NCBI GenBank assembly: GCA_033065855.1
Contig: JAVXUO010001186.1
Location: 186,001 to 250,000, forward strand
Direction: 5' to 3'
DNA from: Escallonia rubra
Taxonomy: Eukaryota; Streptophyta; Magnoliopsida; Escalloniales; Escalloniaceae
Length of the DNA stretch: 64,000 bases
The translations under genes were made by a program, and so were the position numbers. The notes under the pieces are model-generated. The model was not told the origin of the DNA. It ran no database searches and worked only from the letters and a program-made list of their open reading frames with translations. Of this stretch, positions 19,661 through 48,430 are shown in pieces. Each line of letters opens with the position of its first letter. The stretch's first letter is position 1.

Positions 19661-19669
19661 ACAATAGCC

Positions 19670-24027: not shown

Positions 24028-24126
24028 ATAATGGTGTGTATATATATATAAACACACACACATATATATATACATATATATATATGTATACATACATATA
24101 TATATATATGTATACATATATATATG

Positions 24127-24190
<64 letters not shown>
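24028..24190. repeat. TA/TG/CA microsatellite
   Basis: Long alternating TATATA, ACACAC and GTGTGT tracts. The frames through it give Tyr/Ile- or Val/Cys-rich nonsense. It provides the target of the MITE on its right. Confidence 0.9.
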
Positions 24191-24194
<4 letters not shown>

Positions 24195-25457: not shown

Positions 25458-26573
25458 ATGGCCGGTGGGAATTTGCCGGAAGACGTGGTTAGAGAAATTC
25501 TCCTGATGCTTCCTGTTAAATCCTTGTTGAGATGCAAGTCTTTGTGTAAGAGTTGGTATACTTTGATCAAAAAGCCTAATTTCATATCTGCACACTTTAA
25601 TTGTAATCATGCTCTTAAAAGAAGCCATTGTATCCTCGTCAAGCGGTGCCTACCGGAACATGTCCCACCAACAGAAAGTGTCATGTCCTTCCTTAGTGAC
25701 AAAATTAGCGGTGGTGATCATGTCCCACCAACAGAAATCACTATACCGCATTTCAATCACTTTTTACAGATGGTGGGTCCTTGCAATGGCATAGTCTGTC
25801 TTACGGATCACCGTGATATTATCCTATGTAACCCTTCAATCAAGGACTTCAGGGTCCTTCCTCCTCCATCATTTAACTATCCCCAAGGTTTGTTTTCTAG
25901 TACATTGGGTGTGGGATTTGGCTATGATCCACACTCTAGCGAATACAAGGTTATCAGAATTGCAGAACTCTACAAAGATGATGAAAGCGGGGGCTACGGG
26001 TTTCATTATGTTAAAGTTGAAATTTATGACCTGAGTATCGACTCTTGGAGAGAAATAGACGCAATTGTGCCCTACGTTTGGTACTTTCCTTGTTCAGAGC
26101 TTCTATTTAATGGACATTTTCATTGGTGGGCAGATGATAAAGATCATGGTGGCGAGTCAATGCTTTCTTTCCACATCGGCACGGAGGCTTTTCAGCAGAT
26201 ACGATTGCCTTATGTTTGTGCATTTCCTGATGGAAACGAAAGGGCTTTTCTAGTTTTAAATTAATCCATTGCATTACTTCTTTTCAATCCCTCAGAGCAG
26301 ACGTGCTTTGACATATGGTTGATGACTGAGTATGGTATTACTGAGTCGTGGACAAAGAAATTTACTATCGGACCACTCGTGCAAATCAAGCATCCTTTAT
26401 TGTTTTGGAAGCATGAGTTGCTTCTGGAAAAATCCAATGGCCAGTTGGTATCGTATGACCTCAAATCCCAAAGATTAAAGGAATTTCAAGTATATGGAGC
26501 TCAAGAAAGTTTGGGGGCCGTTGCTTATAATGAGAGCTTAGTTTCGATCAAATAAGGAAGTGATATCAACTGA
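25458..26573 (+). pseudogene. F-box/FBA (SLF-like) gene, copy A, two nonsense codons
   Basis: Sister of the intact gene at 47324-48430. The F-box lies at residues 4-40 (N-L-P-E-D-V-V-R-E-I-L, then P-V-K-S-L-L-R-C-K), followed by an F-box-associated domain with G-P-C-N-G-I-V-C-L-T-D, N-P-S-I-K-D-F, P-C-S-E-L-L-F-N-G-H-F-H-W-W-A and E-S-W-T-K-K-F. The frame stops at TAA 26262-26264, where copy B has GAA, and again at TAA 26553-26555, where copy B has CGA. Between and after these stops the frame stays open to TGA 26573. It also has an extra stretch of about a dozen residues near residue 70 that repeats H-V-P-P-T-E. A 268-residue product missing the end of the FBA domain is possible. F-box proteins join SCF ubiquitin ligases and choose the substrate. 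Confidence 0.88.
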
Positions 26574-26923
26574 CATGATGATAGTTTGAATGCTTTAATA
26601 CCCACCCTTCTTTTCCTCAATGTTCTAGACATAGAATTTCGGTCCATATCTCGAGCTAAACTTTTTTTATGTTTCATAATAATTGTGTAATTTTAGAATG
26701 TATGTTGATTTTTCTTTTGAGTTTGTTGGCAGTGCCTATCTCTGTACCCCAAGGGAACAGCACCCCAACCCTGTTATTGTACATGAGGCATACCCGAGGC
26801 CCCCTTAATAAAGTTCTTATTTGGGCATCACCAATGAACATTTGGGTCATTTTGGGGGAGTCCATGGATATAGAGGCCCAGAATACGTACACTATAATGT
26901 TTGTTGGCTTAGATTTTTCAGGA
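26574..26923 (+). other. 3' flank of F-box copy A
   Basis: Matches copy B 48431-48778. AATAAA at 26807-26812, with the same AATAAAGTTCTTATTTGGGC context in copy B, is a likely polyadenylation signal. Confidence 0.55.
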
Positions 26924-27676
26924 GTAAAATACATTGACCTCCCCTGAAGTTTTGGTTTGTTACACGTGGATCTCTTCTAGTTTTGAAAATTGCACCGTAC
27001 TATCTTGCTTTAAATTTTCACTAACAAAGACTCCACTAACGTTACTTTGCCATAACATTGATGATGCCAGCAAAATTCTCTTCCAATATACCATGCACGC
27101 CCTTAAGACAAAAAATTATCAACGCGCCAATAACATATAGTGAAGTACAGCCTCCTAGAAATGTGCAAGCCTTGCAAATATTTCAAGGAATATTGCCAGG
27201 TGTTTTTCAATGCCTTCAAGGCTTCAATAACCTAATAGGATGCACCTCAACTCCATACTTTTCCAACAATTCAGCTCTCATACCTTCTAACTTCATATTA
27301 GGATTGGCCCTAAGATAAGAACCAAGTCTATTGGCTATCAACCTAGGATTATCATATTTGTCAATTAGGTTGTTAAAGTCTTGAAGGCATTAAAAAACGC
27401 CTGGCAATATTCTTTGAGATATTTGCAGGGCATGCGCATTTCTAATAACAAGTACTTTACGATATGTTATTGACGTGTTGATAGTCTTTTTGTCTTTAGG
27501 GCGTGCAAGGTATATTAAAATAATATTTTGTTGTTTCGTCACTGTTTTAACGGCAAAGGAACTTTAAGGGGGTCTTTGGTAGGAAAAAAATTAAAATACG
27601 GAAGCACAGTGTAATTTTTAAAACTAGAAGGGATCCAAGTGTAACAAAGCAAAACCTCAGGGGAGGTCAACCTTTA
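26924..27676. mobile_element. Foldback element, copy A
   Basis: About 750 bases that read nearly the same inwards from both ends: TTGACCTCCCCTGAAGTTTT at the left, and the inverse of TTGACCTCCCCTGAGGTTTT at the right. The arms (over 300 bases) include TGTTACACGTGGATC / TGTTACACTTGGATC and AACGCGCCAATAACATA / TATGTTATTGACGTGTT. The same element sits at the equivalent place in copy B (48779-49243) with a shorter centre, so it was present before the segment duplicated. No gene inside. Confidence 0.75.
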
Positions 27677-27679
27677 TTC

Positions 27680-28620: not shown

Positions 28621-29196
28621 ACGATCTTAAGTTATGTCCAATTTTATGTTTCTCTCTCTAGAATCCAAGAGCTCTCTAATTTTAGAGTGAGAAAGTGATT
28701 TTTGTGAGAATGGTGAAGAAGTCCCTTTTTGAGTTGTAAAGTTCACTATTTATAGGAAACAGTGTGCTTATATCATAAAGTGCCACATGTCGTCCCCTGG
28801 GAGTGACACGTCACCAGGGAGTCCCAAAATACCGGTTCTCCGTTGGACTGCTGATTCCTAAATTTGCGTTGCCTGCCTCGCACAGCGTCGCTCTACCTGT
28901 CTGAGAAGACTGACCATACCATGACGGCATGATCAGAGTAAGCCCGTTGCCCCAGCCACATATCCAAGCCCTTACTGAATCCCACAAGGTGCGTCAAGAG
29001 ACGCGCAGAGAACCTGACCGTTGTGAGGGTTGCCCCTTAGCCAACAGCTAGGCAGATTAGGCGCGATGCCCTCCATGGACATGTTCCCGTTCCGGAGTGA
29101 CCCGTGGGTCATTGTCCTGGTGGTGTCGACGATCAACGGTAACATGAGCGGACATGGTCGCAGCTCAGTGCTCCGAGTCCGTGGCGATGGCTATGA
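28621..29196. other. GC-richer lead-in to tandem arrays
   Basis: Base composition rises from about 28780 onwards. No gene is recognised; the open frame at 29030-29269 runs into the tandem array and is not credible. Confidence 0.4.
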
Positions 29197-30225
29197 GGTT
29201 GTGAGCCCATCCCGGTACGAGGGTCGAAGCCCCTTTGTGATTGAGACGGCAATGGCTATAAGGTTGTGAGCCCATCCCGGTACGAGGCCGAAGCCCCCGT
29301 TGTGATTGAGACGGCGATGGCTATCAGGTTGTGAGGCCATGCGGGTACGAGTCCGAAGCCCCCCTTGTGATTGAGACGGCGATGGCTATAAGGTTGTGAG
29401 CCCATCCCGGTACGAGGCCGAAGCCCCCGTTGTGATTGAGACGGCGATGGCTATAAGGTTGTGAGCCCATCCCGGTACGAGGCCGAGGCCCCCCTTGTGA
29501 TTGAGACAGCGATGGCTAAGGTTGTGAGCCCATCCCGGTATGAGGGTCGAAGCCCCCGTTGTGATTGAGACGGCGATGGCTATAAGGTTGTGAGCCCATC
29601 CCGGTACGAGGCCGAGGCCCCCCTTGTGATTGAGACGGCGATGGCTATAAGGTTGTGAGCCCATCCCGGTACGAGGCCGAAGCCCCCCTTGTGATTGAGA
29701 CGGCGATGGCTATAAGGTTGGTGAGCCCATCCCGGTACGAGGCCGAAGCCCCCCCTGTGATTGAGACGGCGATGGCTATAAGGTAGTGAGCCCATCCCGG
29801 TACGAGGCCGCAGCCCCCCATGTGATTGAGACGGCGATGGCTATAAGGTTGTGAGCCCATCCCGGTAAGAGGCCGAAGCCCCTGTTGTGATTGAGACAGC
29901 GATGGCTATAAGGTTGTGAGCCCATCCCGGTACGAGGCCGAAGCCCCCCTGTGATTGAGACGGCGATGGCCACAAGGTTGGGAGCCCATCCCGGCCCGGG
30001 GCCGAAGCCCCCCTGTGATTGAGACGGCGATGGCTATAAGGTTGTGAACCCATCCTGGTGCAAGGGCCGAAGCCCCCCTGTGATTGAGACGGCGATGGCT
30101 ATAAGGCCCTGTGATTGAGACAGCGATGGCTATAAGGTTGTGAGCCCATCCCGGTACGAGGGCCGAAGCCCCCCCTGTGATTGAGACGGCGATGGCTATA
30201 AGGTTGTGAGCCCATCCCGGTAGCA
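29197..30225. repeat. 65-bp tandem array, about 15-16 copies
   Basis: Unit GGTTGTGAGCCCATCCCGGT, then ACGAGGCCGAAGCCCCC, then TTGTGATTGAGACGGCGATG, then GCTATAA, counted as 65 bases. The copies are very similar, with single-base changes and a few one-base indels. One truncated unit lies near 30100-30125. Because 65 is not a multiple of three, it gives the same peptide pieces in rotating frames (71-286 residue minus-strand open frames) that are not genes. Confidence 0.92.
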
Positions 30226-30264
30226 TGCAACATGATTGTGGCGCATGGGCGCGGTGCCTATAGC

Positions 30265-30650
30265 ACGAGACAATTAATACCTGGTGCCGCGGGCACATGT
30301 TATGAAAATAGCGCGGCGACAAACGTCGCGAAGCAATACTTGGTACCGGGGCACGTATCAGGACGATGGAGCACGGGCGCGGCGACGAACGTCGTAGAGC
30401 AATACTTGGTGCCGGGGCACGTATCACGAGAATGGCACAAAGGGGCGGCGAGGAACGTTGCGGAGTAATATTTGGTACCGGGTCACGTATCATGAGAATG
30501 GCGCAAGTGCGCGGCGAGGAACGTGGCGGAGCAATATTTGGTGTCGGGGCACGTATCATGAGAATGGCGCAAGGGCGCGGTGACGAACGTCGCGGAGCAA
30601 TATTTGGTGCCGGGGCACGTATCATGAGAATGGCGTGCGGGCGCGCGTCG
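30265..30650. repeat. About 66-bp tandem array, about 6 copies
   Basis: Unit AGCAATATTTGGTGCCGGGG, CACGTATCATGAGAATGGCG, then GGCGACGAACGTCGCGG. Different from the neighbouring 65-bp array, and less uniform. Confidence 0.85.
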
Positions 30651-30894
30651 GGTGTCCCGAAGATAGGATGTGAGCTAAGTGTACCGTCATAACAAGATAA
30701 TGAATGCAACATGTAGTAGTGACAAAGTTGGGGAATGATGGTACGTGGTTGCCAACGACGGGTCATTCGGTGGTAGCATGCGACTTTGGGTGACGGGCAT
30801 CACGAGAGCGGTGCGGTCATGGGCGTCGGATGAAAGACGTCACGGAGTTGATGTACGAACGTCTGTAAACATCACGGAGGTGCAAAGACTCGAG

Positions 30895-31800
30895 AAAATA
30901 AGTGCGCGCGATGGGAGAGGCCATAGGCCAAAAATGGGGGGAAGGCCAAGGCCAAATGGCCAACTCTCATGAAGGAGCCCAAGGCCACTCCCCCCTCTTG
31001 GTGAACTTCGGGCGCGCCGACGGTAGGTGTTTTGTTGGGCAAATAAAAATCCAAAAGTTGTATCATGACGAGCGTGACGATGTGAATTGTACCTATATGA
31101 CGAACGAGATGTCAAAGTCACGTGCAAAGCGTACGAAGCGAAAAAAGTGCGAAAATGGGTTTGCGCGGAGGGGTGAACCACCGGGGGAAAATGGCCGAGG
31201 CCAACCCCTCCAGGAGGCCGAGGCCGACACCCATGGCATGGGGAGGCCGAGGCCGACCCCCTGGGGTTGGCCAAGGCCAAATGGCCAACTTCCATTTTCA
31301 GAGCCCAAGGCCACTTCTTCTTTTGCGAACTTCGGGTGCGCCATCGGTAGGTGTTTTGATAAGCAATGACGATTCCGAAAGTTGTGTTATGACGAGCGTG
31401 TTGCCAAGAATCGTACCCATGTAGTGATCAAGGTGCCAAGCATACGTACGAAGCATACGAGGGGAAATAAGTACGAAAAAGGGTATGCGGGAAAGGGGTG
31501 AACCACCGGGAGAAAGTGGCCAAGGCCAACCCCCATGGCATAGGGAAGGCTGAGGCCGACCCCCATGGCATGGGGAAGGCCGAGGCCGATCTCCATGGCA
31601 TGGGGAAGGCCGAGGCCGACCCCCATGGCATGGGGAACGCCGAGGCTGACCCCCTGGGGTTGGCCAAGGCCATTTGCCCCTTGACCCTGTTTCTCCAAAT
31701 GTGCCGTCGGCCGATCTTTCTGATGAAAAGGTGTTCGGATGGTCTTGGCGTTACGACGGTGCTAGCAGTAGTGACATCGACGCGAAAATAAAATGTCTAA
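30895..31800. repeat. Higher-order repeat with 31-bp GGCCGAGGCC units
   Basis: Two to three copies of a unit of roughly 300-400 bases, each with an ACTTCGGG-(C/T)-GCGCC lead, GTAGGTGTTTTG, a middle with CGTACGAAGC, and GGGTGAACCACCGGG. Inside are tandem 31-base units (GAAGGCCGAGGCCGACCCCC then ATGGCATGGGG), four in a row at about 31540-31650. A version of the short unit (GGCCGAGGCCGAGGCCCCTG then GCATGGCATGG) also occurs inside the next gene at 32655-32690, linking the arrays to that element. Confidence 0.8.
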
Positions 31801-32428
31801 GTCGCGCACGAAGCGCCTGAAGCGAGAAAAACACGTGTCTTGGGCGCCCGGGCGCTGACCGGTTTGATGCGTTGAAAAATTGACCGTTTACAAAGTCGAC
31901 GTGTTCGCGTGAAATGGTCCCCCTATTGGGCCCTTGAGTATGACCAGAATAGGTTGGGAACATAAGCCCCCTGCGTGTGGTGTGCGCGGAGGGGCAACCC
32001 GAGTGGGCGCCGCACGCATAAGCGTTAGGCTTTGAAAAAAAGGTGCTGGGCTCGAATTTTGAAGAACGGGCGTTATAGTATAGTAAAACGTGAGGGGGCG
32101 GAAATTTCCTTGGAATTTGGAAATTTTCGATATTTTTTTTTTATTCGGAAGTTGGGTTGCGCGAAGATTTTGATAGCGATGTTAAATTATGAACGTGAAA
32201 TAATTTTGTTGTTTCGCCAAAATAAAAAACGCGTTAGAAAAAGTCGGCGTTAAGAAGTGGAACGCTAAAAGAGTTGTTGGGAATTTTTTAGGGGAAACTT
32301 GGAATTTGAATTGATTTGATGGATTTGGGGGGGAAAGTTAGGGGAGAGTCTTAACTTTCAAGACTTTTGAGAGGGAAGGAAAGACTTAACCAAAAAAAGA
32401 GAAAAGAGAGGAAGAAGAAGAAGAAGGC
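31801..32428. other. Probable promoter/leader of the PMD element
   Basis: After the arrays, the sequence becomes AT-richer (32030-32400) and ends in a purine-rich leader (GAAGAAGAAGAAGAAGG) before the first ATG at 32439. No separate gene is seen. Confidence 0.4.
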
Positions 32429-35400
32429 TTGGAGACCCACATGGTGATGTTGAGGACTTCACAAGAGGCTAGGAGGATGCAACAAGGGAGAGGAGGTGGA
32501 GCACAAGGTGGGAGAGGTCATGACCGAACCTCGGCGGCGACTGAGGCCGACCATGGCTCGGTGGGAGGGGCATGGATGGGGTCGACCGAAGTGAGGGCTT
32601 GGAGAGTGGGGATGGGAAGGAAAAGGGAGGGGGTGATGGGGGGAGTGCCAAGGTCGGCCGAGGCCGAGGCCCCTGGCATGGCATGGGTTGGCAGCGGCGA
32701 GGGGGAAGGGGGAAGGGGGGAGGGGGAAATGGAGAAGGGAGGGGAAGAGAGGGATGAGAGAAGTAGAAGAAAGGGAGAGGAAAAGGGAGGAAGAAAGGGA
32801 AGAAAGGAGAAAGAGGAGGGAAGAAAAGGAGACAAGAGGAAAATGCAAAGGGAAAGGGAAGGCGGTCGATGCCGGGCAGACCATGCACGACTTGGATGCT
32901 CTTGGCGTGATTGGTGATGATGGAGGAGCCCGAAAGAAGTCGAGGAAAAAACAAAGTGTGCGGTGCCGAGGCGGGGCGAGTGGGCATTCACAGTTGCCGC
33001 GGGACGTCATGACTGATGACGATGAGGACGCACCGGTGCCGACTGACGCATCGGGTGTGCCCTTGGGTTTTGTTGATGGTGGGGTGATGAGCTTTGATCA
33101 GACTCCAAGTCAGAGCGACGTGTTACTGACCGTGAAGGGGGCGGTGCCCGGGTGCCCACCCGAGGGGTTGTTGAGGGAGTTGGCGCGATGAGTGCCTGCT
33201 GAGGTGTTTGCGGTATCTTGGAGCTTTGCATCGATGGGTGATGGTCATATGATCCCTTCACCGTATGTCCGTGCGCCGAGCTTCGATGTTGCTCCCGTGA
33301 TGTCGTCGCGGTATGTACCGGGTTTGTTGACTGAGCGAGAGGACATTCCGTGGTCACCTGTCATGTTCAAGGGCCACATTGTCATGCCGGCCGGTTGGGG
33401 CTTCTGGTGCGCGTACATGTTGGGGTGCGAGGTTTGGAGAGAGAGGTTGGAGGCGCTTGGGCTAGTAGCGGCAGTGGAGGCGACGTACAAGAGTGTTGAT
33501 CCTGTGAGGGACATTAGTGGCCTCACACTTTTACTTTCGAGGTGGAGCTCACAGACGCACACCTTTATTACGGAGTTCGGGGAGATTGGTCCGACACTTC
33601 TGGATGTCGTGATATTGACCGGCCTACCGATGCACGGGACATAGGATGTCCGCGTATCGAAGCTGACAGCGGAAGAGCGTTTGACTGTCAAGGCGTTGAT
33701 TGGTTTTTTTGTCAGATACGAAGCTCAACCGTAAAGGCACGTATAGTCGGTGGATTCAGCACTTCTATGGCATAGTGGTCATGCTGCCCGGGCAGAGGGT
33801 GATGTCGGACGATGACTTCCATATGGGTCCTTTTTACAGTGATGAGAGATACGAGCTAGCTGCCTTCCTTGCCATGTGTCTTTCAAGGTACACCGTTGTG
33901 TTATCCTTATCATTGCATTACTTGTATGCTACATATCTATTACTTTGTACGTGTAGTGTGCAGATTGTTATGCTTGGTGAACATAATTCCTTCTTAAGAA
34001 CAAAGAGAAGTAATGTAGTGTGCTGCCATGTGTTGTACCGCATATTTTGCTAGGGGGGGGTGGTCATGATGGGCATCTCATTTTCTGTACGTATAGGTTT
34101 GTGTTTAAGGGGACACCCGAGGATGGTGTTTCTCAGAAGGTCTTCCCGTTGGCGGTGCGGATGGCCGCAGGCAACCGCATTGGTTTGGCACCGATATACT
34201 TAGGCACTTTGTATTCACGTCTAGACCAGTTTTTGAATGACATGTAGAGATCGTATGGGCGGTATCAGGTGTCGACCTACGTCGATTGGATGTTCTTGCA
34301 GAGGTATCTGTTCGAGTGCTACATAGACTACAGGCCTTCGGGATGCCCGAAAGTACATCCCTCACCGAGGAAGGGAACAGTGACGCGTCCGGGGAAATCC
34401 ATGGTAGTATCGAAGTGGTACGCGGGAGGACGAGTTTATGCTTGGGTTGGCGTCAAGAGGCCTTCATGTGAGTTATCACAGGTGTTCGATGTGCGAGACG
34501 CGTGCCTTAGTCGTCTGTACGTCAACATGGATTCTTCATACGGGACTCCTCCCTGGATGTATTTACGGGATATCAGTTCACGGTTACAAAACAGAGCAGA
34601 CTTGACAGAGCTTGAGATATCCTTGCTAGTGGCCTTCTTACCCGAGTGGCTTCCGGTGTTGACCGATGATGGCGGGAAGTCGGCCGTCGACCGGTGTTAT
34701 GTTGCACGCTATAGCTTAGACCGCTTAGCCTTGTCCTTTGGTTATGATCTGGAGCCCCCTTGTGGTTATGCTCGACCTTGGAGCGTTGACACGGCCTTTC
34801 GGTATACCATGCTAGGGAAGGCGCGTTCGTGGCCAGCACCGACGGACGAATGGAGGAGACCTGGTTTTTTGTCCACCGGAGTGGTCACAGTTGGGTATGC
34901 TCGTTGGTGGGAGAGAGTGCGGACTACGTGGTCTGAGTGGTTAGCGCAGGGGCCATCCGATAGGCCGCGGGTTGATGTCTTCATTGGTGACAGTGGTTTG
35001 GTACTGGTGTCACTGCATGTGGCGAAGCAGTCCGTCATGATTGCATTGTTCACCATTGTTTTAAAGTATGGTGCGGGGAGAGACCGTCATGGAGACACGA
35101 GACCCCGAGGTGGTGGTGGGAGAGGTGTTGCCGTGCGCGAGCCAGCGCCAGCCCACGTGCCGAGGGTACTGGGTGCCGGCAAGGGTCCCCTTTCGTCAGT
35201 GAGAGTGGGGATGATGGAGAGCGCGCAGCGTGGTGGCGGGGGTCCTTCAGCAGGCGGCGGCCATAGGCCGAGGAGGCCGCGTGTGGCATTGGATTATTCT
35301 GATTCTGAGGTTAGTGTTACCATTTTTTTTCATAGTTTCCGATCATTGTGTTACTCATGTGCTAAGTCTCTCTAATTTTTTTTTTTTGGTCAGGAGCTCG

Positions 35401-36686
35401 GAGATGACATAGATGCAGAGTCGTCTGAGATAACGGAGGATGCCGAGGTTGCCTTTGATGATGGGGAGGATATGGATGCCGAGGTTGGCTTTGATGGTGG
35501 TGAGGACATGGATGCCGAGGCTGGCTTTGATGCTGGCGAAGACGACGCCGGCGAGGGCATGGAGGCTGCCGATGTGCCTAGGGAGACAGATGCGGAACCA
35601 TTGGGGATGCTGGGGCTGTGGATACCAAGGTTGTCGCTGAGGTAGAGGAGGTAGTGGTCGAGGTAGTCGATGAGGTAGATCAGATGGATGCCGAGATTGC
35701 CAGCGAGGTTGGTTCCATGGATAGGGGGTAGTTGAAGAGGTAGGGGCAGCAGAGAAGGTGGCGGCCTACCTCGTGAAACCGATCGGTCATTCTAATCCGT
35801 CGCCTATCCCGGTCGAAGCGGTTGAGTCTCCATTCGGTGGTCAGATTGGTAGCTCTCACTTGTTCGAGGGGTCGGACTGGTGGGCGGTGAGGGAGCCTGA
35901 CGCTCCGTCCGGCATTCATCATGGTTTTGCTGCTACACATATGCCTACTGCAGATCCATCCCCGCAGCCTAAGGCACCTGTTCCATGGACAGCGGAGCCT
36001 GTTCCGGAGGCGTTGTCAGGTTCGGTAGCGGATGCTGGTGATACTTTGTTAGCGATGCATTCTGGTGCAGTGGATGCACAGTCGACAGGCGGCGGCGTCG
36101 CTGGGGCTGGTGAGGACCATGGTAGATTCCTGGTTGTACAGGCAGACATGATCTCGTCGGACGGTGTGGAGTTGGCGGATGCAGTAGCGTGTCGTCTGGA
36201 GATGGTTAGAGAGCGGCACCCGCAGACATTCGTTGACTCTGCCCTGATTCGTGGTGCAGCATTCTCGAGGGCGATGTATACGGCCTTTGTAGAGTGGTTG
36301 GTCACCCTTGGTACAATATCGGTCCCGAGTTGGACTCCGACGATGATAGCACAGTACCTGTCGGAGCTTACGCCCTACGCGGCCCTTGGCTTTCAGTTGG
36401 ACTGGCTGGCGGACTACATCAGATCGAGAGGCCAGAGTGCTGAGGCAGTAGCGGGATTACTCTGATCGGAGCTCAGGAGGTTGCCTTGCAGGGTCAGAGA
36501 CGTGTGCTTGATGCCGAGGTGACAGCGATGACCCAGGAACTTAGGGAGGCAGAGAGGCGGCTGGCCGAGACGGAGGGTCGACGAGCTGATTGGGGTGGCA
36601 GGTGGCCTGATCTTCAGGCACAGCGGTTGACATTGGAGACGTATACCTCCGATCCTATCGGTTCATTATTTGCTCATTTACATTAG
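32429..36686 (+). pseudogene. Plant mobile domain (PMD) transposon protein, broken
   Basis: PMD proteins are transposon-borne (also found as host 'phosphatase 7 long-form homologue' genes). The Gly/Arg/Glu-rich N-terminus (32429-32870) leads to the PMD: S-R-W-S-S-Q-T-H-T-F, then F-G-E-I-G-P-T-L-L-D-V-V-I-L-T-G-L-P around 33535-33635. After a GT-AG intron (33888-34096) comes F-P-L-A-V-R-M-A-A-G-N-R-I-G-L-A-P-I-Y-L. Then a long open stretch (34269-35309, ending with A-L-S-F-G-Y-D-L near 34730) and a second intron (35310-35393). An acidic repeat (D-M-D-A-E-V-G-F-D) and a coiled-coil C-terminus ending at 36686 close it. In-frame stops at 33189, 33642 and 34245, and frame shifts near 33718, 35640-35760 and 36465, make it a pseudogene. 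Confidence 0.72.
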
Positions 36687-37313
36687 ATGTGATGTAGTTT
36701 TCATTTTGCTAGTAGTCATTGGTCCGTAGTGGCTTGCAAACCTGTGACATGTATGCATTTTGTTGATATTGATATAGCAGTCATATGGTTATTTTGTACT
36801 TGCATTTTTTGTGAGGTGATGCTTAGCTTTTGATGTGCTTGTATATCTTGCATGTGGTGTCTTCCCCTTGTGGTTCCCCCTTCCCCGCCCATAGCAAGCG
36901 ACTTAGTGAACGATGCGTAAATGAAAGAGTGCGTTACATACAGTAGTGGAGGCGAGTGAATGATCTTTGCATTGATAGTATTTGGGCCAAAATGCCATTA
37001 CATGAATAAAGCAAGAACTTGTAATAAATAACAAAAGTTACAAGTCATGAACATGTGTGCATATACAAAAAAATGTTGTGTAAATGTTCTAAGCTGTGGG
37101 CGGGTAGGGCTGGGGGAACACTCCGGTGCTGGTCATGCATAATACTTCATCAAATAGCGGCCGTTGATAGGTGCCGTGATTTTTCCATCTTCTGTGTTGA
37201 GCAGGAGGTAGGAGCCACTGTCTTTGGCTTCACTCATAGACATATATAGTAATTTTTCATCAGAAATTATGTCTTTTAAGGATGAACAAATTTTGGTTGC
37301 TATCAGGATTGTA
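36687..37313. other. Spacer, possible 3' part of the PMD element
   Basis: No gene recognised. Composition returns to AT-rich here. No terminal inverted repeat could be paired with the left side of the GC-rich island. Confidence 0.35.
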
Positions 37314-39240: not shown

Positions 39241-39339
39241 TCCCACCAACAATGCCTCTCTTCTTCTTTTTATTTATTTTTTCACTAACTTCTCACAATG
39301 AATCCTCACAAATGTCAACATTCACTTGGCAATTCAGCG

Positions 39340-39925
39340 AAAAGAGCCACCACCCTTTCACATTCTTTCTTTCCTTTCCTGTTCTATTCTCTGTCTCTAT
39401 GTGCCTCTTCTTCTTCTTTTTCTTCACTAACTTCCCAGATGGATCCTCACTAAAGTCAACATTAACTTGGCAAATAAAAAATGCCGTGGCAATCCCTCTT
39501 AGCTTTTGCTTATAAAACTGATTTATACTCGCTTTTGTTCTTGGAGTTTTGGTCCCATATGGGAGGAGGCTACGACCAGGATAGATTTTGCTAAACAAGA
39601 TCATGTAAACTAGGATAGTCAGACGGTTACCAGAACATTAAAGCAATTTGACAGCCCCGGCTGAGATTGGTTACAAGAACTTTCCCTGTGGAGGTGTGGA
39701 GGTAGTGAATATAATTCCGTAAACCTTACCGAAAAAAAGTGCCGAGGAAAAAATATCAAGTTCCCAAGTCGTACTTATGCTTCATTGATAATTTTTGTGG
39801 CCATCAACCAGACCAATTTCCCTATAAATAGAGCCACGTTGTTGTGCTTTTCATGCAAGCAATCTAGAAAGATGGCTAACAATACTACCTCACTTTTTTT
39901 TTCTTCTGATAAGACTTGCTTTACC
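39340..39925 (+). repeat. Duplicated S-RNase 5' flank, copy 1, with truncated first exon
   Basis: Carries the same ordered blocks as 40340-41430: a CT-rich CTCTTCTTCTTCTTTTTCTT tract, AACTTCCCAGATGGATCCTC, GCTTATAAAACTGATTTATA, then CTATAAATAGAGCC (TATAAATA 39823-39830) and the ATG at 39872 (M-A-N-N-T-T-S-L-F-F). It then departs from the S-RNase and enters a CG-rich repeat near 39930. So the promoter and the start of the signal peptide were duplicated, and this copy has no RNase domain. Confidence 0.78.
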
Positions 39926-39929
39926 CACC

Positions 39930-40080
39930 ATACATTGTTATCAAAGGCACGCTATGGCGCAAGGCACAGAGAGTGCGCCTCGCCTAGGCTAGGTGCAGCT
40001 CCTTCGAAAAGGCGAGCGTCTCGCGCACGTAGGCACCCAGCCGCAAGGCTTTAAGCCAGTGGTGGAGGCGGCGCAAAAAA
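39930..40080. repeat. GCGC-rich dispersed-repeat-like insertion
   Basis: Contains CAAAGGCACGCTATGGCGCAAGGC-like and GTGCGCCTCGCC motifs, a pattern seen in dispersed plant repeats. It follows directly after the truncated S-RNase start, whose coding sequence does not resume on its right. Class not determined. Confidence 0.4.
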
Positions 40081-40329
40081 AAGTCCAAAAATCCTAGTCT
40101 TTGAATTTTGCATCGTGGCATCATCTCGACTGTTCATTGTCTTTGATTCTTTGTTTGACAACATAATAAGTTAATATCTAAACCACCAAAAAAAAAAAAC
40201 CTAAAACCTAAATCCCCAATCAAGCGATTCTTTGTTGTTGTTCATTGTGTCAGTGCCTCGCACCAATTGTTGCTTATCTTTTCCCATGCTTATCATTTCC
40301 TTTCCTACTGTTTCGTCTCATGCACTGCC

Positions 40330-41349
40330 AAAAGAATCACCACCAATGCACCCTTTCACATTCTTTCTTTCCTTTCCTCTTCTATTCTCTGTCTCTCTCT
40401 GCCTCTTCTTCTTCTTTTTCTTCACTAACTTCCCAGATGGATCCTCACTAAAGTCAACATTAACTTGGCAACTACAAAGGTCATGGCAACTCTTCTTATT
40501 TCTGTTAGGCACTTAACTTTACCATCTCCAATATTAGTCGCTTATTTCATCTCCTTCATTCATTTTCTTACAACATCCTTTTTCTTTTTTCAACCGATAA
40601 GTCTTTTAACTTGACTCCGCACCCTACTCCATACTTGTGTAATCATTTATACAAAGCTCGAGTCCACCACGAATCCGTGAAATATATCTCCAAAATATGT
40701 CACTTACAACAATCTTCGGTAAAAATCACAAGTAGTATCACTTACTATAATCATCGCTGAAGTAATAATTAAAATCAGCAGAATTTACCATTAACCCTAC
40801 TTTAGGTGAAGTGCGTGGTATTAAAATAACAATTTGAGTGTTACCGGTGGCCCGCGTGGGAGGAATTCCATAATAGTAAACTATATACTAGTTATTTCAC
40901 GACAAGGACCAATTAAAATGGTCCTATATTTCCCCTACAAAGTGATATTGTTAACTGTGAAATGCCATGATGGTTAGATATGTACATTAGCAATCTCAAA
41001 AAACATTTTCATGCTCATAGTCTTTCACCACATAGCTTCCGCTTATAAAACTGATTTATACTCGCTTTTCTTCTTGGAGTTTTGGTCCCAGATGGGAGGA
41101 GGATACGATGAGGATAGATTTGACAGCCCCGGCTGTAGGCCTCACCTTATTGTCATCTAATCAACTCGAGCATTAGAGCAATTTGACAACCCCGGCTGAG
41201 ATTGGTTACCAGAAATTTCCATGTGGAGGTGGTGAGTATAATTCCACAAACCTTACCAGAGAAAATGTGCTAAGAGATAAATATCAACTTGCAAGTTTTG
41301 GCAATGTATGATTGACAATTTTTTTGGTCATCAACCAGACCAATTCTCC
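40330..41349 (+). repeat. Duplicated S-RNase 5' flank, copy 2, split by about 520 bases
   Basis: 40340-40505 matches 39345-39500 (CCTTTCACATTCTTTCTTTC, then the CT-rich tract and GATGGATCCTC), and 41030-41349 matches 39505-39820 (GCTTATAAAACTGATTTATA, GGAGTTTTGGTCCCA). Between them, about 40510-41030 has no counterpart in copy 1, so it is an insertion in copy 2 or a deletion in copy 1. No gene lies in that insert. Confidence 0.7.
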
Positions 41350-41357
41350 TATAAATA
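41350..41357 (+). promoter_or_regulatory. TATA box of the S-RNase-like gene
   Basis: TATAAATA in the context CTATAAATAGAGCC, 42 bases before the ATG at 41399. The identical box and spacing occur in the truncated copy (39823-39830, ATG 39872). Confidence 0.65.
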
Positions 41358-41398
41358 GAGCCACGTTGTTGTGCTTTTCATGCAAGCAATCTAGAAAG

Positions 41399-42167
41399 AT
41401 GGCTAACAATACTACCTCGCTCTTCTTTCTTCTACTAACACTTGATTTTCTCCATACCGTGAATCTGCCTTCGACTTCTTTAAGCTTGTACAGCAGTGGC
41501 CAAGCACCTACTGCCAATTGAATACTTGTGCAGTACAACCCATAATTAAAACCTTTACTCTTCATGGACTTTGGCCTGACAATTATTCAACTACTCTCGG
41601 TCATGCCCTGGGAAAACCTTTCAGATGTTTCAAGTAGCGGTAGCTTGCTTTAACGTACTAGTGATACTGTTATATGGAAATACAAATCCTTTTGAGTTAG
41701 AATTCTTAATTATCATTGTTTTTGCAGGATCCTGCCTATGTCCAAAATCTTACTATTCGTTGGCTCGATCTCAAGAATCCCGGCAAAAGTCAGGGATTTT
41801 GGTCGCATGAATGGAAAAAGCATGGGACTTGTTCTGCAAATCTGTATCCTCAGCATGCATACTTTAACCTAGCAATGCAGCTGCACACGCTAAACCTTCT
41901 CCAAGCATTCGCAAAAAGAAATATTAGCCCTGGTGCCAGTGGTAATCAACTGTTGTCCCGGCTGAACAACTATCTCGTGACTTCCACTGGCAAAGTCCCT
42001 GATTTAAGTGTCAGCTGGACCGAACCATAACTAGTCCCAGAAGAAACCTACTCAAAGAGGTGGTCTCTTGTTACAATCCGTCCGACACTGCTATCGACTG
42101 CCCAATCTCTCAGCGCTCCAACTCCTGCAGTACACGCTCAAATGCAATTCTCGTATTCCCTGACTGA
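41399..42167 (+). pseudogene. S-RNase-like (T2 ribonuclease) pseudogene
   Basis: Secreted T2 RNase of the S-RNase type, which cleaves RNA and, in S-RNase self-incompatibility, acts in the style against self pollen tubes. A signal peptide starts at 41399 (M-A-N-N-T-T-S-L-F-F). A one-base loss near 41468 shifts the frame. From 41470 come F-D-F-F-K-L-V-Q-Q-W-P and active site I F-T-L-H-G-L-W-P-D-N (41554-41583). A short intron (about 41625-41727) sits where S-RNases usually have one, but its donor is not a clean GT. Exon 2 has active site II F-W-S-H-E-W-K-K-H-G-T-C-S (41797-41835), so both catalytic His are kept. TAA at 42028 ends that frame; the family C-terminus (L-L-K-E-V-V-S-C-Y-N, then I-D-C-P) follows in another frame to TGA 42165-42167. 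The two frame breaks indicate a pseudogene, unless the assembly is at fault. Confidence 0.85.
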
Positions 42168-43315
42168 TGATCTAATCTATACCACTGTCCTCCTCCTGAT
42201 GCATAGCTATATCTTAGTAGCATAACAATGTTGTCTTGTCAGTCATCTCTAGTTTATGACTTCGCAATCGTCAATATATCACTAGTTTTGTGTACTTCGT
42301 AGCAGTTTTCTTATTTTTGCTGCTTTCCTTCTCTCCTCTTCTTCTTGTTCCTCTTCTCTTCTCCTCTGTTTCTATTCTTCTTTTCTGTTACTGTTCCTTC
42401 ATTTTTCATTCGAATTTCTTTTTGTTTTCCTTTTGTTTTATTTTATTTGCTTCCTCTAATTTCCTTAAGGATCTTTACCTCATACTTTATATTATAAATG
42501 GATTAGTCATAGTAAACCAAGGAGGAGGTGGCACCATATTGTGAACCATTCTCCCAAATTGACACACAATGTCCAACTTCCTAAAATTACAATTTAGCCC
42601 CCAAAGTGACCACCCCAATGACTGGGGGTTGCCATGGCACCCCCCTACCCAATTTTTTGTGAAGGTTCTTTTTTAATTGTTTAGATATTAGATAAATATT
42701 TCTAAAATACTTACGAAACTATCACCATAATGTAAATTATCAAATGAGGATCTTATTTTGTTGTGTTTTTTACATTTTGTGTCATCGACATCATATATTT
42801 GTCTTTCTCATTAACTTGCTTCATCTTAATCTTTCCAAATTTTATGATTTAAAACTTCAGATTAAAAAAACATGATTAGATAAAAATTATTTTTTTAGAT
42901 TCTTATACGTTACTACTTACTATTGTACTGATCATACAATAGTCACATTGGTATTACATCTATATATTAAGAGTTAACATTTTTCCATGCAAAATTAGTA
43001 ATTTATTGTTGACTAATCTTATCAAGTTAATTAATCTATATGAATAGTAAATTTATATGATTTGCAGTGAAATTGATCAATCTATTTTACATTTAACATA
43101 TTTAATAGTGACGCGTTTTATGTAAACTTGAACTTTTTTTTTTATTTTTTAATGTTAGCCATCAATTTTTTTAAGACGTTTTGGCCCTTCCGATTAGACT
43201 TCTGGATCTGCCCCTGACTCTATTAATATCCGAGCATTGCTCAAAATTACACCCGTTTATTTTTCGGATCACAGATAATTATTTTAGACAGCTAGAAAAG
43301 TACGGGATATTACAC
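42168..43315. other. AT-rich spacer with a possible hAT end
   Basis: No gene recognised. TCTGGATCTGCCCCTG (43200-43215) looks like the inverse of a CAGGGGC-type hAT terminus as at 57557. No partner end or target duplication was identified; GGGGGTTGCCATGGCACCCC near 42625 may be part of the same element. Confidence 0.35.
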
Positions 43316-44255
43316 CTTTCACCACCGCCCAACCACCCACACACATGGACGGCACCCCCACAGACGGGGCACACACACAAACACCCACGGACAGACCAGA
43401 CAACGCTTCAACCCCACACTGCCTACGTACTTTATCACCGAACAACCACCCCACCCCCACGGACGACACCCACACAGAAACAAACCGCCCCCCACTTTTG
43501 TTCTACCTAAACACTTCAAACACAACAGAATCCCACCCAGGCCCACACACCCCCCACCAACATAGACACGCACGATACGGACATACACACACATATAACC
43601 TCACGTCCTACAACCACAAACATATTATTTGGTAACCATTTTCTACCACCCCCGCTCCCACCTTCCACCCCTTTCATCACTGGACACCCACCCACACCCA
43701 CATGCCACACTGTACAGACGTAGACAAACACAAACAGCCCCTCATCCTCACCCTCACCCTCACCCTCACCCCCGCCCCATTCCCCCACCTTGCCCAGTCT
43801 AAACCCTTCCATCACCGCACAACGGAACCCGCACCCACACTCACCTAGCCCCATCCCCCACACTTACACAAACACAGACACGCAACATAGACATATAACG
43901 CAGACAACCCCCACCTCCTACAACCCCTAACACATCCCTCATGATGCCCCGACACCTTATCACCCCTTGCACCACCAGACAACCCTCAACCCACAGAACA
44001 CTGTCGCATGCAACAGCCCCCACATTCTACCACCGACCTAGGAATCCACACCCCATAAAATGTAATCCAACCCCCCTCCCCCACCTCATTCTGCCTAAAC
44101 ACTTTAACCACCATATAACCCCAGTCTCTAACCACCACTTACCCACCCATAGACGGGTCTCCCTCCCACCCTTCACCTTTACCAACCCACTTACACACCA
44201 AACCCACAATTGTGACACATACCCCACTTACACACAAACACAAAAACAGTCATGA
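43316..44255. repeat. Large C/A-rich, G-poor block
   Basis: About 940 bases in which the plus strand is almost free of G: CCACCCACACAC, CCCCACGGAC and six-base CCCTCA runs (43745-43775). Degenerate internal repeats are visible, for example TCTACCTAAACACTT (43503-43517) and TCTGCCTAAACACTTT (44090-44105). Its right part matches the block at 6841-6890. The minus strand is G-rich and may form G-quadruplexes. Frames across it give Trp/Val/Gly- or Thr/Pro/His-rich nonsense. Confidence 0.8.
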
Positions 44256-45940
44256 AATGCACATTTAATGTTTTATTTATAAAGAAAGGTTTCAGGCACT
44301 TACTTGCAGTGGAAGTTCTCTATTTTTTTCCGCTTTGTTTCACATTTACTGGTTGTGTCGAAACTACTATAATCAAGGTAAGACACTAGGTGATAGTTGT
44401 TAAAAGAGGGGGGATGGGAGGTAATAACGTAGGATGATTATACTTTATGGCCAATTATACTTTGCCTGTAATGCAACGGAACTTTTAGGTGTCTATAAAA
44501 TTTTAATTTTACCCTAATCAAATTAAATTGGGGTCTTTTCGTAATGTTAAATGTTGTGAGTGAAATTAGGAAGAAGCAACTAATGTGCAAGGGGTTTTTA
44601 AGCAAATTTCATTCTTTTTATGGTTAGTATAAAAGCCCTAGTATAGTAGCTGGCCGTCAAAGACAATTCAGTGAGCCTCCTTGTATGTGAAAGCCAGAGA
44701 GGTAAAGAGAGATTGAGGAAGCTTCTAGAGCAAGAATTTTTCAACGTAAATCCCTAGTCTCTTCTGTCTAATTTTGGCTATTCGTTCAGGTGTTTTAATG
44801 TTTGGTCTAGGGTGTGTTTTATAAGGGTATTAATGTGTGAGTGCTAGGGTTCGTGTGTGTTTCAGAGGGTGAGATATGGGTGTGTTTGAGAGAAGGCTGC
44901 TGTAGAGCAGCATAAAAGCGGGTTAGGGTTTTGTCAATATTTCTTTCATTACTAACCCGTTGATGCATTTTTATACTTTCTAAAGACCTTTTTGTGTCCA
45001 ATCTAACTTTTCAATTTTAAGTTTTCTAAGAATCTCACGTTTTTGCATATCGAAAAATGACCATAAATTCAATTCACCATAGAAGTCCAGAATTGTTCTG
45101 TTTCTGGCAGCCAATTCGATTTGCTATAGATAATTCATTACTCATTGGTTTTTTGTGATCCTTATATTTATAGAATTCTAAGAATCTCTAATTTAACTTT
45201 GTAGTTTTGAGTTTTTTGAGATTCGTAGTATTTTTGCTTTTAAATAACCATTGAACAAAATTGGTCCAGCAGAGATGTGTTGTTTCTATCAACCATTTCG
45301 ATTTGCTATAGAAATTCATCACTCATTGGTTTTTTTGTGATCCTTATGTTTCTAGAAACCTCATAAAGTCTATCTTAATTTTGAGTTTTTTAATATTCTT
45401 CATGTTTGTGCTTCAAAATGGTCAATACACAAAACTGTGTTTTGCTGAAAATGTTGTTTCTAGGATTACAGATCAGTCAATTGTCAAAAAATTTAAAGCT
45501 ATGTCTATGTGTACTTAGGCAAATTGAGAAACTAAAACTCCCTTATTTTTATGAAACCTACGCTGTGAAATTGTTTGAGATTTTTCTGGGCATGCAGAAG
45601 ACTTGAAATGGTTTTATTTTGAAAACATGTTTTTGAATTATTTGACGTAGTAACGAACTTCTTTTTAGCCGAAAATTTACAGTAACTTCATTTTACTGAG
45701 ACACTTAAGTGTCCGAAATTTCGCGGCATCCTAGTGTTGATTGTTTTGTTTTTGAAATATGGTCCCTAGCGCTAAAATCAATGAGCGTTTAGGATTTTTA
45801 ACGAAAAATCCCCAGAGATACTCTTTTTGTACCAAGAACCCACTTAGTTGTTTAAAAAGATGTTTAGCGTTACTTTTGGATGTGTAATGATACGTTAGGC
45901 AATGGGGATAATTTAGAACTTTACACAAGTCCGGGAGTAT
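44256..45940. other. AT-rich spacer with a short tandem duplication
   Basis: Two imperfect copies of a roughly 180-base sequence at about 45105-45290 and 45285-45420 share TTCGATTTGCTATAGA, CTCATTGGTTTTT and GTGATCCTTAT. TATAAAAG at 44629-44636 followed by a purine-rich leader looks promoter-like, but no gene follows; the open frame at 45406-45606 is not recognised. Confidence 0.45.
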
Positions 45941-45984
45941 TTTGGTAGTTTCATTGACATTGCCACTAGTGTCACTGTATCACC

Positions 45985-46205
45985 ATTGTCGCGATCAACA
46001 TGGATGTGATTGCCACCACTATCACCAGCACCATCATCGCTCCTTATGCTCCAACCAAAAAATACCACTCGTGACACCTTAATGCCACCACGACCAGCAC
46101 CATCGCTAACATCACTAGACCACTCCATACCCTGTCATCTATGCCATGCCACTGCCTCCACCCTCACCACTTCCACCATTAGTGCTACTGTGCCACTACT
46201 TATAA
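45985..46205. repeat. ACC/ATC triplet-rich block
   Basis: CACCACTATCACCAGCACC-type sequence like the minisatellite at 7940-8603, followed at 46270-46440 by the matching element arm. So a copy of that TIR element family lies upstream of F-box copy B. Confidence 0.6.
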
Positions 46206-46219
46206 TGCAACAATAACTC

Positions 46220-47323
46220 GCACACCACTGCCATCGTAGGCTTCCTCCTTCACATGAGAAGTTATTAACCATAGTTTGTTCTCAATTTAATCTAATTTGA
46301 GGATATAAATCTCCAAAAGTCTATTATCTCCCAAATTTCTCCTCCAAACACGAAAGAAGATTTCCGTGATTTGAATATTATTTTAAATAATTTGCAATCT
46401 AATTTCTGAAAGAATCGGTCATAGATCGTGCGTTAGTATGTAGGTAATTTAACGCGTCACTGTTGACACAACGGTATGGGCTTTTACTAAAGCAGTTATA
46501 ACCGTTTCGAGCTGAATTGACAAAAATATCCCCTTAATTCCATCACCACCATTACCTTTGTCCTTACTCCCAACATTTAATGGATATCAGAATCTCCATG
46601 AGAATCTATAACTCCTTTGATGAGAGGGTTCAAGGCCTTTCTAGCTCTTTCATTCCTCCAGTGATCATTCCAAATTTTCTGATCATCAACCCAAAGTTGT
46701 CTCAATTTCTCAACCACTATTCTCTTCAGGGGCCATCTCTGACTAAAAGCTAGTTTTGTCAGTTCACAATTAGGATTTTGCGCAGGTCCACAAACTCTTA
46801 AGTGGCTTACCCGATATTTGAATTCTCTCTACACCACCCTATATATTCTCTCATTTCTCTTGCTCAAATTGCAAACCTTAGAAACTATCAAGCTGGTTTC
46901 TGATGCCCAATTCACCACCCATTTCAATTGGTCTTGCAGCTGCCGGCGAATTTGATCTTGACATATCCGTCCAAGGTTCAAGTATTCAAGTGTTTAATTT
47001 CAAGAATCAGCCGCCTGTCCACTAGGTCTCTCTCTCTCTCTCTCGTCTTTATGGTACATGATAAGTGGTACTCTTGTTCTGAAAGAATAAACTCTGACAG
47101 TTTGCACGTTGTAATTATGTATTTCAGTTTCTTACTGTATACTATAGCGATAACAGCTGTGTTTATATTGAGATTATTGGGCAAAGGATAGTCTCCAGCA
47201 TCAATTGCATTAGTTGCCTTAGTTTCTATCTGATTTTCAACAATTGTCAATGTCCCACTTTTGTCCTTATTCCCTCGTTCTGCAATTCTTAACATTTGTA
47301 CATGGACAATTTGCAGAGATGAA
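46220..47323 (+). promoter_or_regulatory. Upstream region of F-box copy B with empty target sites
   Basis: Aligns with copy A in three pieces. AAT at 46515-46517 is the unoccupied site of the outer CACTA, and GCCAT at 46732-46736 the unoccupied site of the solo LTR. TATATAT (46840-46846) is a candidate TATA element about 480 bases before the ATG. A conserved GTATTC (about 46981) and TTTGCAG just before the ATG suggest a 5' UTR intron. A CT repeat (CTCTCTCTCTCTC, about 47030-47045) is not in copy A. Confidence 0.6.
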
Positions 47324-48430
47324 ATGGCCAGTGGGAATTTGCCAGAAGACGTGGTTACAGAAATTCTTCTAATGCTTCCTGTTAAATCCTTGTTGAGATG
47401 CAAATCTATTTGTAAGAGTTGGTATACGTTGATAACAAAGCCTAGTTTTACAACTGCACACCTAAATTGCAATGCTGCTCTTCAAGGAAACCATTTTATC
47501 CTACTTAAGCGTTTTCTGCAAGAAAGTAACAAAAGTGTCATGTCCTTCCTTAGTGACGAAATTAGCAGTGATGTTCATGTCCCACAAACAGAGATCACCA
47601 TACCGCACTCCAATGAATTTCTACAGATGCTAGGTCCTTGCAATGGCATAGTATGTCTTACGGATCACCGTGATATTATCTTATGTAACCCTTCAATCAG
47701 GGAGTTCAAGGTCCTTCCTGCTCCTTCATTTAACTATCCCCAGGGTTTGTTTTCTAGGACGATGGGTGTGGGATTTGGCTTTGATCCACACTCCGGTGAG
47801 TACAAGGTTATTAGAATTGCAGAACTCCATGAAGATGATGAAGACTGGGGCTACAAGTTTCATTATGTTAATGTTGAAATTTACAACCTGAGCACCAACT
47901 CTTGGAGAGAAATAGATGCAGTTGTGCCTTGCGTTTGGTTCTTTCCTTGTTCTGAGCTTTTATTTAATGGACATTTTCATTGGTGGGCAGATGACGAAGA
48001 TCATGGTGGCGAGTCGATGCTTTCTTTCCACATAAGCAATGAGGTTTTTCAGCAGATACGGTTGCCTAATGTTTGTGCATTCCCTGATGGGAATGAGAGG
48101 GCTTTTCTAGTTTTAAATGAATCCATTGCATTACTTCTTTTCAATCCCTCAGAGCAGACGTCCTTTGACATATGGACGATGACTGAATATGGTATTGCTG
48201 AATCATGGACCAAGCAATTCACTACTGGACCACTTGTACAAGTCGAGCGGCCTGTATTGTTTTGGAAGCATGAGCTGCTTATGGAAAAAGCCAATGGTCA
48301 GTTGGTATTGTATGACCTTAGATCCCAAAGATTAAAGGAATTTCAATTGTATGGAGCTCAAAAAAGTTTAAGGGCTGTTGCTTATAGTGAGAGCTTAGTT
48401 TCGATCAAGCGAGGAAGCGATATCAATTAA
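47324..48430 (+). CDS. F-box/FBA protein, S-locus F-box (SLF)-like, copy B
   Basis: Intact 368-residue protein. The start is ATG 47324, matching the start of copy A; the frame is open 21 codons further up but that part falls in the probable 5' UTR intron. The F-box spans residues 4-40 (L-P-E-D-V-V-T-E-I-L, then P-V-K-S-L-L-R-C-K-S-I-C-K-S-W), binding Skp1 in an SCF ubiquitin ligase. The F-box-associated domain follows: G-P-C-N-G-I-V-C-L-T-D, N-P-S-I-R-E-F-K-V-L-P, S-W-R-E-I-D, P-C-S-E-L-L-F-N-G-H-F-H-W-W-A, E-Y-G-I-A-E-S-W-T-K and E-S-L-V-S-I-K-R-G. This pattern and the length (SLFs are about 370-400 residues) resemble pollen SLF proteins, which recognise non-self S-RNases. It could instead be a general CPR1-type FBA protein. 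It lies 5 kb downstream of the S-RNase pseudogene, same strand. Confidence 0.9.
   Translation: MASGNLPEDVVTEILLMLPVKSLLRCKSICKSWYTLITKPSFTTAHLNCNAALQGNHFILLKRFLQESNKSVMSFLSDEISSDVHVPQTEITIPHSNEFLQMLGPCNGIVCLTDHRDIILCNPSIREFKVLPAPSFNYPQGLFSRTMGVGFGFDPHSGEYKVIRIAELHEDDEDWGYKFHYVNVEIYNLSTNSWREIDAVVPCVWFFPCSELLFNGHFHWWADDEDHGGESMLSFHISNEVFQQIRLPNVCAFPDGNERAFLVLNESIALLLFNPSEQTSFDIWTMTEYGIAESWTKQFTTGPLVQVERPVLFWKHELLMEKANGQLVLYDLRSQRLKEFQLYGAQKSLRAVAYSESLVSIKRGSDIN

Follow-up and report, generated by a model that had tools for sequence, protein, structure and literature searches.

In canonical type-1 S-loci, of which Petunia, Antirrhinum, Malus/Pyrus and Rosa provide examples, a haplotype normally carries a single S-RNase. 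The locus of Escallonia rubra described here resembles them in the linkage of a class III-like RNase with numerous FBA F-box genes that lack introns, but it differs in having at least 8 and at least 10 RNase places, mostly broken or fragments, on two sets of contigs. The same sets carry at least 23 and at least 28 F-box loci, broken ones included, compared with the 9-37 SLFs per canonical type-1 locus given in the cited passage of PMC12403065. In a search of open-access full texts, which implies no novelty, the nearest published case of several S-RNase copies and pseudogenes within one locus was the 'Mal S-locus' of Gillenia trifoliata (Rosaceae), for which the excerpt cited gives three F-box genes and four S-RNases, two of them full-length and two partial (PMC12033343). 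As far as that excerpt goes, both loci contain duplicated segments in which an F-box gene accompanies an S-RNase that is full-length, partial or a remnant, and both have transposons in the region. The numbers differ, with at least 52 F-box loci and at least 18 RNase places, on two contig sets, here. Putative S-haplotypes or relics with 2-3 RNases and 6-15 F-boxes are described for Citrus clementina, Theobroma, Gossypium and Phaseolus in the cited portion of PMC5598434; compared with these, the present locus has more RNases and F-boxes, and 26 of its 30 examined F-box loci are open.

The RNase relic and F-box sequences of the window

The window, that is, the whole stretch of 64,000 nucleotides that was analysed, had been described in an earlier note as carrying a T2 RNase between two same-strand FBA F-box genes, one 15 kb upstream and the other 5 kb downstream. 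The RNase, the strands and both distances held, but the upstream F-box copy (25458..26555, + strand) proved to be a pseudogene, because an in-frame premature TAA interrupts it at codon 269 (26262-26264). It is SLF-like and has 80% protein identity to the intact window copy, and its later SIK* end is the usual end within its F-box family. The downstream copy (47324..48430, + strand) is an intact SLF-like gene, an intronless open frame of 368 aa with matches to F-box (E 2e-10), FBA_1 (E 4e-9) and F_box_assoc_1 (E 8e-30). Sequence comparison showed that pieces of its upstream flank (45951..47323, + strand) recur upstream of the pseudogene, where the flank (13710..25454, + strand) is split, apparently by inserted DNA, into four pieces (13710-13910, 21579-21796, 24805-25072 and 25322-25454). 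Neither Rfam families nor tRNA genes were detected in the window when it was scanned for them.

Between the two F-box copies, Pfam Ribonuclease_T2 matched at 41467-41634 (E 6e-10) and 41728-42027 (E 2e-18), and reading by eye gave a + strand gene structure of exon 1 (41399-41633), a single GT...AG intron (41634-41727) whose location matches that of the intron in the intact copy, and exon 2 (41728-42167). The active-site motifs FTLHGLWPDN and FWSHEWKKHGTC are both present, in broken frames, with HGLWPDN in exon 1 and KHGTC in exon 2, whose S-RNase-like C-terminus lies in another frame. Compared with the intact RNase at 95 kb of contig C2249, exon 1 has suffered a 10-nt and a 1-nt deletion and exon 2 further frameshifts; because of these lesions the window copy, which lacks the intact coding frame required of an S-RNase, was not classed as one. 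Pieces of its upstream region (40504..41398, + strand) are common with the intact RNase at 76-81% identity, and a partial second copy, comprising RNase upstream region and the first 40 nt of exon 1, lies at 39636..39912 (+ strand).

The window RNase has deletions in common with the copies at 138-142 kb of C2249 and at 150 kb of C1455, the contig that carries the window, and it was therefore probably dead before it was copied; alternatively, gene conversion might have spread a deletion. The broken RNase had been thought to suit either a self-compatible haplotype or a non-determinant paralogue. The former is unsupported, because the window RNase is one of many decayed copies, has deletions in common with two others, and is less well preserved than the RNase at 95 kb of C2249, which is intact, and that at 460 kb of C1455, which has open exons. 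The latter fits best. The window RNase seems to be an old passenger relic, not a self/non-self recognition gene.

Linkage of the F-box and RNase families in the assembly

We scanned the plant's own 566 Mb assembly for close members of both families; since the searches score the best candidates only, the counts of F-box and RNase loci are lower bounds. A search for further F-box genes beyond the window, as the earlier note had proposed, was successful: the scan found at least 52 merged loci across 9 contigs, with at least 18 places of the close RNase family on 4 of these. Of the 52 F-box loci, 35 lie on the RNase-bearing contigs (11 on C1455, 11 on C2249, 9 on C437 and 4 on C350), and the F-box contigs without listed RNase copies are C3104, C716, C323, C2921 and C2893. 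The assembly has the several linked FBA F-box genes of a type-1 S-locus; close copies of both families lie together, and their association exceeds chance. The proposal that the window is a fragment of an S-haplotype gains support because the F-box family is linked genome-wide to a single-intron basic RNase family.

Of 30 F-box loci whose sequences were fetched, 26 kept an open frame of at least 345 aa and 4 were broken; several loci outside these 30 are fragments or stop-bearing. Comparison of the 26 open copies (325 pairs) gave a median dN/dS of 0.38, and these copies are under purifying constraint; the median dS of 0.25 in the same comparison marks the family as young. Flanks are common to F-box copies, and copies on the same contig often share as much as cross-contig pairs. 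A fixed unit of an RNase and a downstream F-box gene was also considered, but the evidence is suggestive only: a same-strand F-box lies within 12 kb downstream of 6 of 18 RNase places, compared with a random mean of 2.1 (P 0.017), the 12-kb limit having been picked with the distances in mind. Among these six pairs, one RNase is a 127-nt fragment and one F-box partner is fragmented; no same-strand F-box lies within that distance downstream of the intact RNase.

The intact RNase and its closest relative

The RNase at 95 kb of C2249 is the sole fully intact one among the at least 18 places. It encodes 227 aa with a pI of 8.76, matches the T2 RNase domain (E 9e-40), and contains FTIHGLWPDN, KHGTC and WPNL, the residue preceding EW being Y, not H. 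Its single intron, of phase 0 and 138 nt, lies between the HGLWP and KHG motifs and was assigned to position 5 by its place, without alignment to the published map. In the passages cited, S-RNases are recognized by one or two introns, a basic pI and the absence of pattern 4 (PMC4451870, PMC5598434), and their intron phase is 0 (PMC5598434). The intact RNase has this gene structure (one intron at position 5, or two, in phase 0), falls within the S-RNase pI range of 8.1-9.7, keeps both catalytic motifs and lacks pattern 4; a CPSSNG-like form of the latter was sought in it by eye and was absent, and the C1149 gene has CPSSNG. PDB scores (RNase MC1 115 bits, NW 112, LE 105, SF11 S-RNase 99, Pyrus S3-RNase 70) do not separate the RNase classes and do not set the intact RNase, whose best match is RNase MC1, with the S-RNases.

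Its closest relative, at 460 kb of C1455, lies on the window's own contig. The two are identical at 186 of 227 aa (82%; dN 0.10, dS 0.18), and 8 of 18 residues are alike, by eye, at positions 64-81, which we take to be the place of the S-RNase hypervariable region (HVa). The mean identity of Rosa S-RNase alleles is 64.8% in the cited part of PMC9527601. The relative has two open exons; however, since it lacks the donor GT of exon 1 and carries a repeated portion of that exon inside the intron, it was not counted as intact and was rejected as a second working S-RNase, though it may be spliced in an unusual manner. All the remaining RNase copies read are broken.

Haplotypes, duplicated loci or a relic

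The contigs were split into two sets, C2249/C2921/C2893 and C1455/C437/C350/C323/C716, after the closest pairs had been seen. Sister F-box pairs join the two sets in 9 of 12 cases, as diverged haplotypes would predict; a strict split was not retained, as the other 3 pairs break it and shared flanks give no clean pair separation. The window block is inverted relative to its C2249 counterpart, with pieces 74-94% alike, and the C2249 stretch matches the region of the F-box pseudogene at 86.9% and that of the intact copy at 87.5%. Bet v 1 and Kunitz-family genes of the assembly were also compared with the PDB: a segment of Kirola, a kiwifruit protein, found its best genomic match at 76% over 88 aa, which makes kiwifruit an improbable source, and the miraculin-like chain 5yh4, of grape, scored 316 bits over 175 aa.

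Judging from the sequence, we consider it likely that the window belongs to a self-incompatibility supergene of type 1 (S-RNase/SLF), probably present in the assembly as two diverged haplotypes. The linkage of the two families, the features of the intact RNase, the open F-box loci and their dN/dS, the cross-set sister pairs and the shared deletions all argue for this reading. Against it stand the PDB scores, the 82% identity of the best RNase pair compared with the Rosa mean, the off-split pairs, the same-contig flank sharing and near-equal C2249 matches, the youth of the F-box family, and the single fully intact RNase where a heterozygous self-incompatible plant is expected to have two. The intact RNase would be the putative pistil determinant of one haplotype and its closest relative the present or former putative determinant of the other, while the F-box proteins would act as putative pollen-side SCF adaptors jointly removing non-self RNases.

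It is possible, though doubtful, that S-RNase incompatibility is no longer used, the RNases decaying and the F-box genes persisting temporarily or for other reasons; the rarity of intact RNases, the lost splice donor and the broken, fragmented or stop-bearing F-box loci agree with such a relic, but most fetched F-box loci are open and constrained, every feature tested is retained by the intact RNase, and the shared deletions suggest that side copies decayed long ago and not that the locus was lost recently. We think it unlikely that, instead of being haplotypes, the two contig sets represent duplicated or homoeologous loci, or come from hybrid parents: a Bet v 1-family gene region also has a second contig copy (93% over 3 kb), and both the 3 sister pairs inside one set and the inverted, unevenly similar window block would suit this, but a 3-kb region with a class I-type RNase occurs in a single copy, and several Bet v 1-family genes have equal scores on paired contigs, as is expected of alleles. 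That the cluster of class III-type RNases and F-box genes never served self-incompatibility, being for example an S-like locus or a stress/defence RNase cluster, is quite improbable, since dozens of one-family F-box copies lie beside one single-intron basic RNase family, even though F-box genes are also common near other T2 RNase classes in the cited part of PMC5598434, RNase MC1 is the best PDB match, and the RNases were assigned by domain and gene structure and the F-box genes by their F-box and FBA / F_box_assoc_1 domains.

Under the preferred reading of two S-haplotypes, the locus would have grown through segmental duplication of pieces carrying F-box genes and RNases, because F-box copies share flanks and RNase copies share deletions, and the RNases would have died before being copied. 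More tentatively, the deletions that copies have in common would mark out at least two lineages of dead RNases occurring on both contig sets, which may represent S-RNase specificities now extinct or a second RNase of the past. The scan yields two S-RNase candidates, the intact RNase and its closest relative, and 26 open F-box candidates. The locus bears on the way in which pollen F-box genes are added to non-self-recognition S-loci: where a dead RNase lies beside living F-box copies, shared lesions would reveal the order of RNase death, segment copying and haplotype split. We tentatively suggest that this S-locus may be a fossil record of added pollen specificities, in which segments with an RNase and an F-box gene were copied repeatedly after the death of the RNase, and F-boxes were gained without a second active cytotoxic RNase.

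F-box genes and RNases in the window and across the assembly

The T2 RNase that the earlier note placed at 41399-42167 was recovered as two stretches matching the T2 RNase family (E 6e-10 and 2e-18), and the F-box gene at 47324-48430 as an intronless open frame of 368 aa with an F-box and an FBA-type C-terminus. The RNase keeps both active-site motifs, its frame is disrupted several times, and in its present form it cannot take part in S-RNase function. The second F-box gene of the proposed S-locus, at 25458-26555 (L018), does belong to the same family (80% protein identity to the intact copy) but is not an intact gene, as its frame stops early at a TAA in codon 269 that had gone unreported; its upstream flank is divided into four separated pieces. 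At the thresholds used, the window held no more RNase or F-box copies, barring a partial copy at 39636-39912 made up of sequence from upstream of the RNase and the opening 40 nt of exon 1.

Two other features of the window were observed. A GC-rich block at 28900-37000 (52-56% in 2-kb bins versus 35-42% elsewhere in most bins) contains 65-bp (29071-30268) and 66-bp (30311-30634) tandem repeats. Both of its strands have long open frames, and five frames of the block had no Pfam match at E 0.01. A Copia-type LTR element at 51888-59516 is bounded by two ends, 51888-52264 and 59136-59516, whose pieces are 83-100% alike, and between which lie a minus-strand gag-pol frame (55525-56850) and a tandem repeat of about 360-base period with copies 98-99% alike (53601-54574).

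We searched the whole assembly (566 Mb, 3222 contigs), in which the window corresponds to 186001-250000 of the 720-kb contig C1455; all counts from these searches are lower bounds. With the intact window F-box protein as query we obtained at least 121 matches (111 of 368 candidates scored). Close matches, taken as at least 50% identity with a 40-aa match at 53% on C3033 excluded, merged to at least 52 loci on nine contigs: 11 on C1455, 11 on C2249, nine on C437, seven on C2921, five on C2893, four on C350, three on C323 and one each on C3104 and C716. Other matches, among those listed, had 26-38% identity. The four contigs that also carry RNase copies hold 35 of the 52 loci. Searching for the T2 RNase family returned at least 27 matches. 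Of these, 15 are on C1455, C2249, C437 and C350 together and the remainder on C1149 (8), C3097 (2), C1901 (1) and C2597 (1). A DNA query cut from the intact RNase ran from the last 90 nt of exon 1 through the intron and exon 2 to 350 nt beyond, and with 40 of 62 candidates scored it gave at least 48 matches. C1455, C2249, C437 and C350 account for 25 of these; the other 23 fall in a dispersed repeat that lies downstream of the RNase gene. Grouping both searches yielded at least 18 RNase places.

The C1901 match is a separate T2 RNase (35389-35991, minus strand, in L060, C1901:26001-36000) with the motifs HGFYP and KHGSC. An F-box gene lies 7 kb from it and is about 31% identical to the cluster family; together they may form an S-like locus at another place in the genome.

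One intact RNase among relics

Gene calls were based on open frames and on alignment to L031, the sole fully intact RNase copy found (C2249:95009-95680, minus strand, 227 aa), in which exon 1 of 81 codons and exon 2 of 146 codons are separated by a 138-nt phase-0 intron with GT/AG ends. Its pI is 8.76, and it agrees with the published triage for the S-RNase lineage (PMC5598434, PMC4451870). A simple reading as an S-RNase would be opposed by the PDB ranking, where RNase MC1 (115 bits), NW (112) and LE (105) score above the S-RNases SF11 (99) and S3 (70), although fast S-RNase evolution could explain their lower place. The closest relative, L032 (C1455:460 kb), is identical at 186 of 227 aa (dN 0.10, dS 0.18); dN peaks in that part of exon 1 which encodes mature protein and is about the same as dS close to the C-terminus. 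At positions 64-81, 8 of 18 residues agree by eye. Both exons of L032 are open, its exon-1 donor GT is lost, and its intron contains a duplicated exon 1 piece (HGLWTDN; L032/L059, C1455:459676-462289), such as could result if two RNase copies had recombined unequally. L031 and L032 share a stretch of about 2.4 kb, beyond which no other match was found at E 1e-10 in the 10 kb compared.

All other readable copies are broken; four further places, at C2249:117 kb, 251 kb and 304 kb and C350:148 kb, gave no more than partial DNA matches. When exon 2 of 11 copies was placed in a tree, the L031/L032 pair split from the nine relics with support 100. In exon 1, a 1-nt deletion unites the window copy with C1455:150 kb and C2249:138 kb. 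These first two also have a 10-nt deletion in the signal peptide, which recurs in the C2249 copy's 5' part (142 kb), and C350:143 kb lacks 11 nt at that position. Another 1-nt deletion, directly before HGLWP, is found in C437:236 kb, C1455:523 kb, C2249:394 kb, C350:143 kb and C350:22 kb. These common deletions suggest that RNases of at least two lineages were already dead when they were copied; gene conversion could possibly have spread them instead.

Segment copying and paired contigs

Thirty of the 52 F-box loci were fetched, and in 26 of them the frame stays open over 345 aa or more, the exceptions being L004, L005, L018 and L029. Across 325 pairs the medians were dN 0.099, dS 0.253 and dN/dS 0.38 (range 0.20-2.17). 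Collinear flank matches in the 435 pairs from the 30 loci had a median of 1080 of about 3000 bases, which argues for segment copying rather than retroposition as the source of the F-box copies.

Nine of 12 terminal pairs in the F-box tree link C2249, C2921 or C2893 with C1455, C437, C350, C323 or C716, two sets defined post hoc, once the closest F-box pairs were known; L009/L007, L015/L014 (support 65) and the tandem pair L023/L026 depart from this. C2249:143478-130031 is collinear, in inverted orientation, with window 40330-48984, the matching pieces being 74-94% identical, a pairing that is not exclusive because the pseudogene region 24806-27128 matches the same stretch at 86-87%. The C2249 counterpart of the window RNase is interrupted in exon 1 by an insertion of about 3.75 kb (L062-L063, C2249:138575-142330) with copia-like coding pieces, recognised by eye, and a 5-bp junction repeat; a 235-bp repeat pair (83%) also lies inside it. 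Several Bet v 1-family genes have identical scores on different contigs, and the region of one of them recurs on another contig at 93% over 3 kb; the region of a class I-type RNase occurs once. This pattern fits an assembly retaining both haplotypes where they diverge; alternatively, the paired regions may be homoeologues, duplicates or of hybrid origin.

Relation to described S-loci

By analogy with known type-1 loci (PMC12403065, PMC8774079), the intact RNase would be a cytotoxin taken up by pollen tubes, and non-self RNases would be marked for degradation by the F-box proteins acting jointly. The nearest described case is the 'Mal S-locus' of Gillenia (PMC12033343), whose three duplicated blocks of 18-22 kb each hold an F-box gene and a full, partial or remnant S-RNase; growth by duplicated blocks is common to both, on a larger scale in Escallonia rubra. 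For Citrus, Theobroma, Gossypium and Phaseolus, PMC5598434 reports putative relic S-loci that hold two or three class III RNases. The Escallonia rubra cluster would probably belong with these described S-loci; what sets it apart is how many RNase relics it carries.
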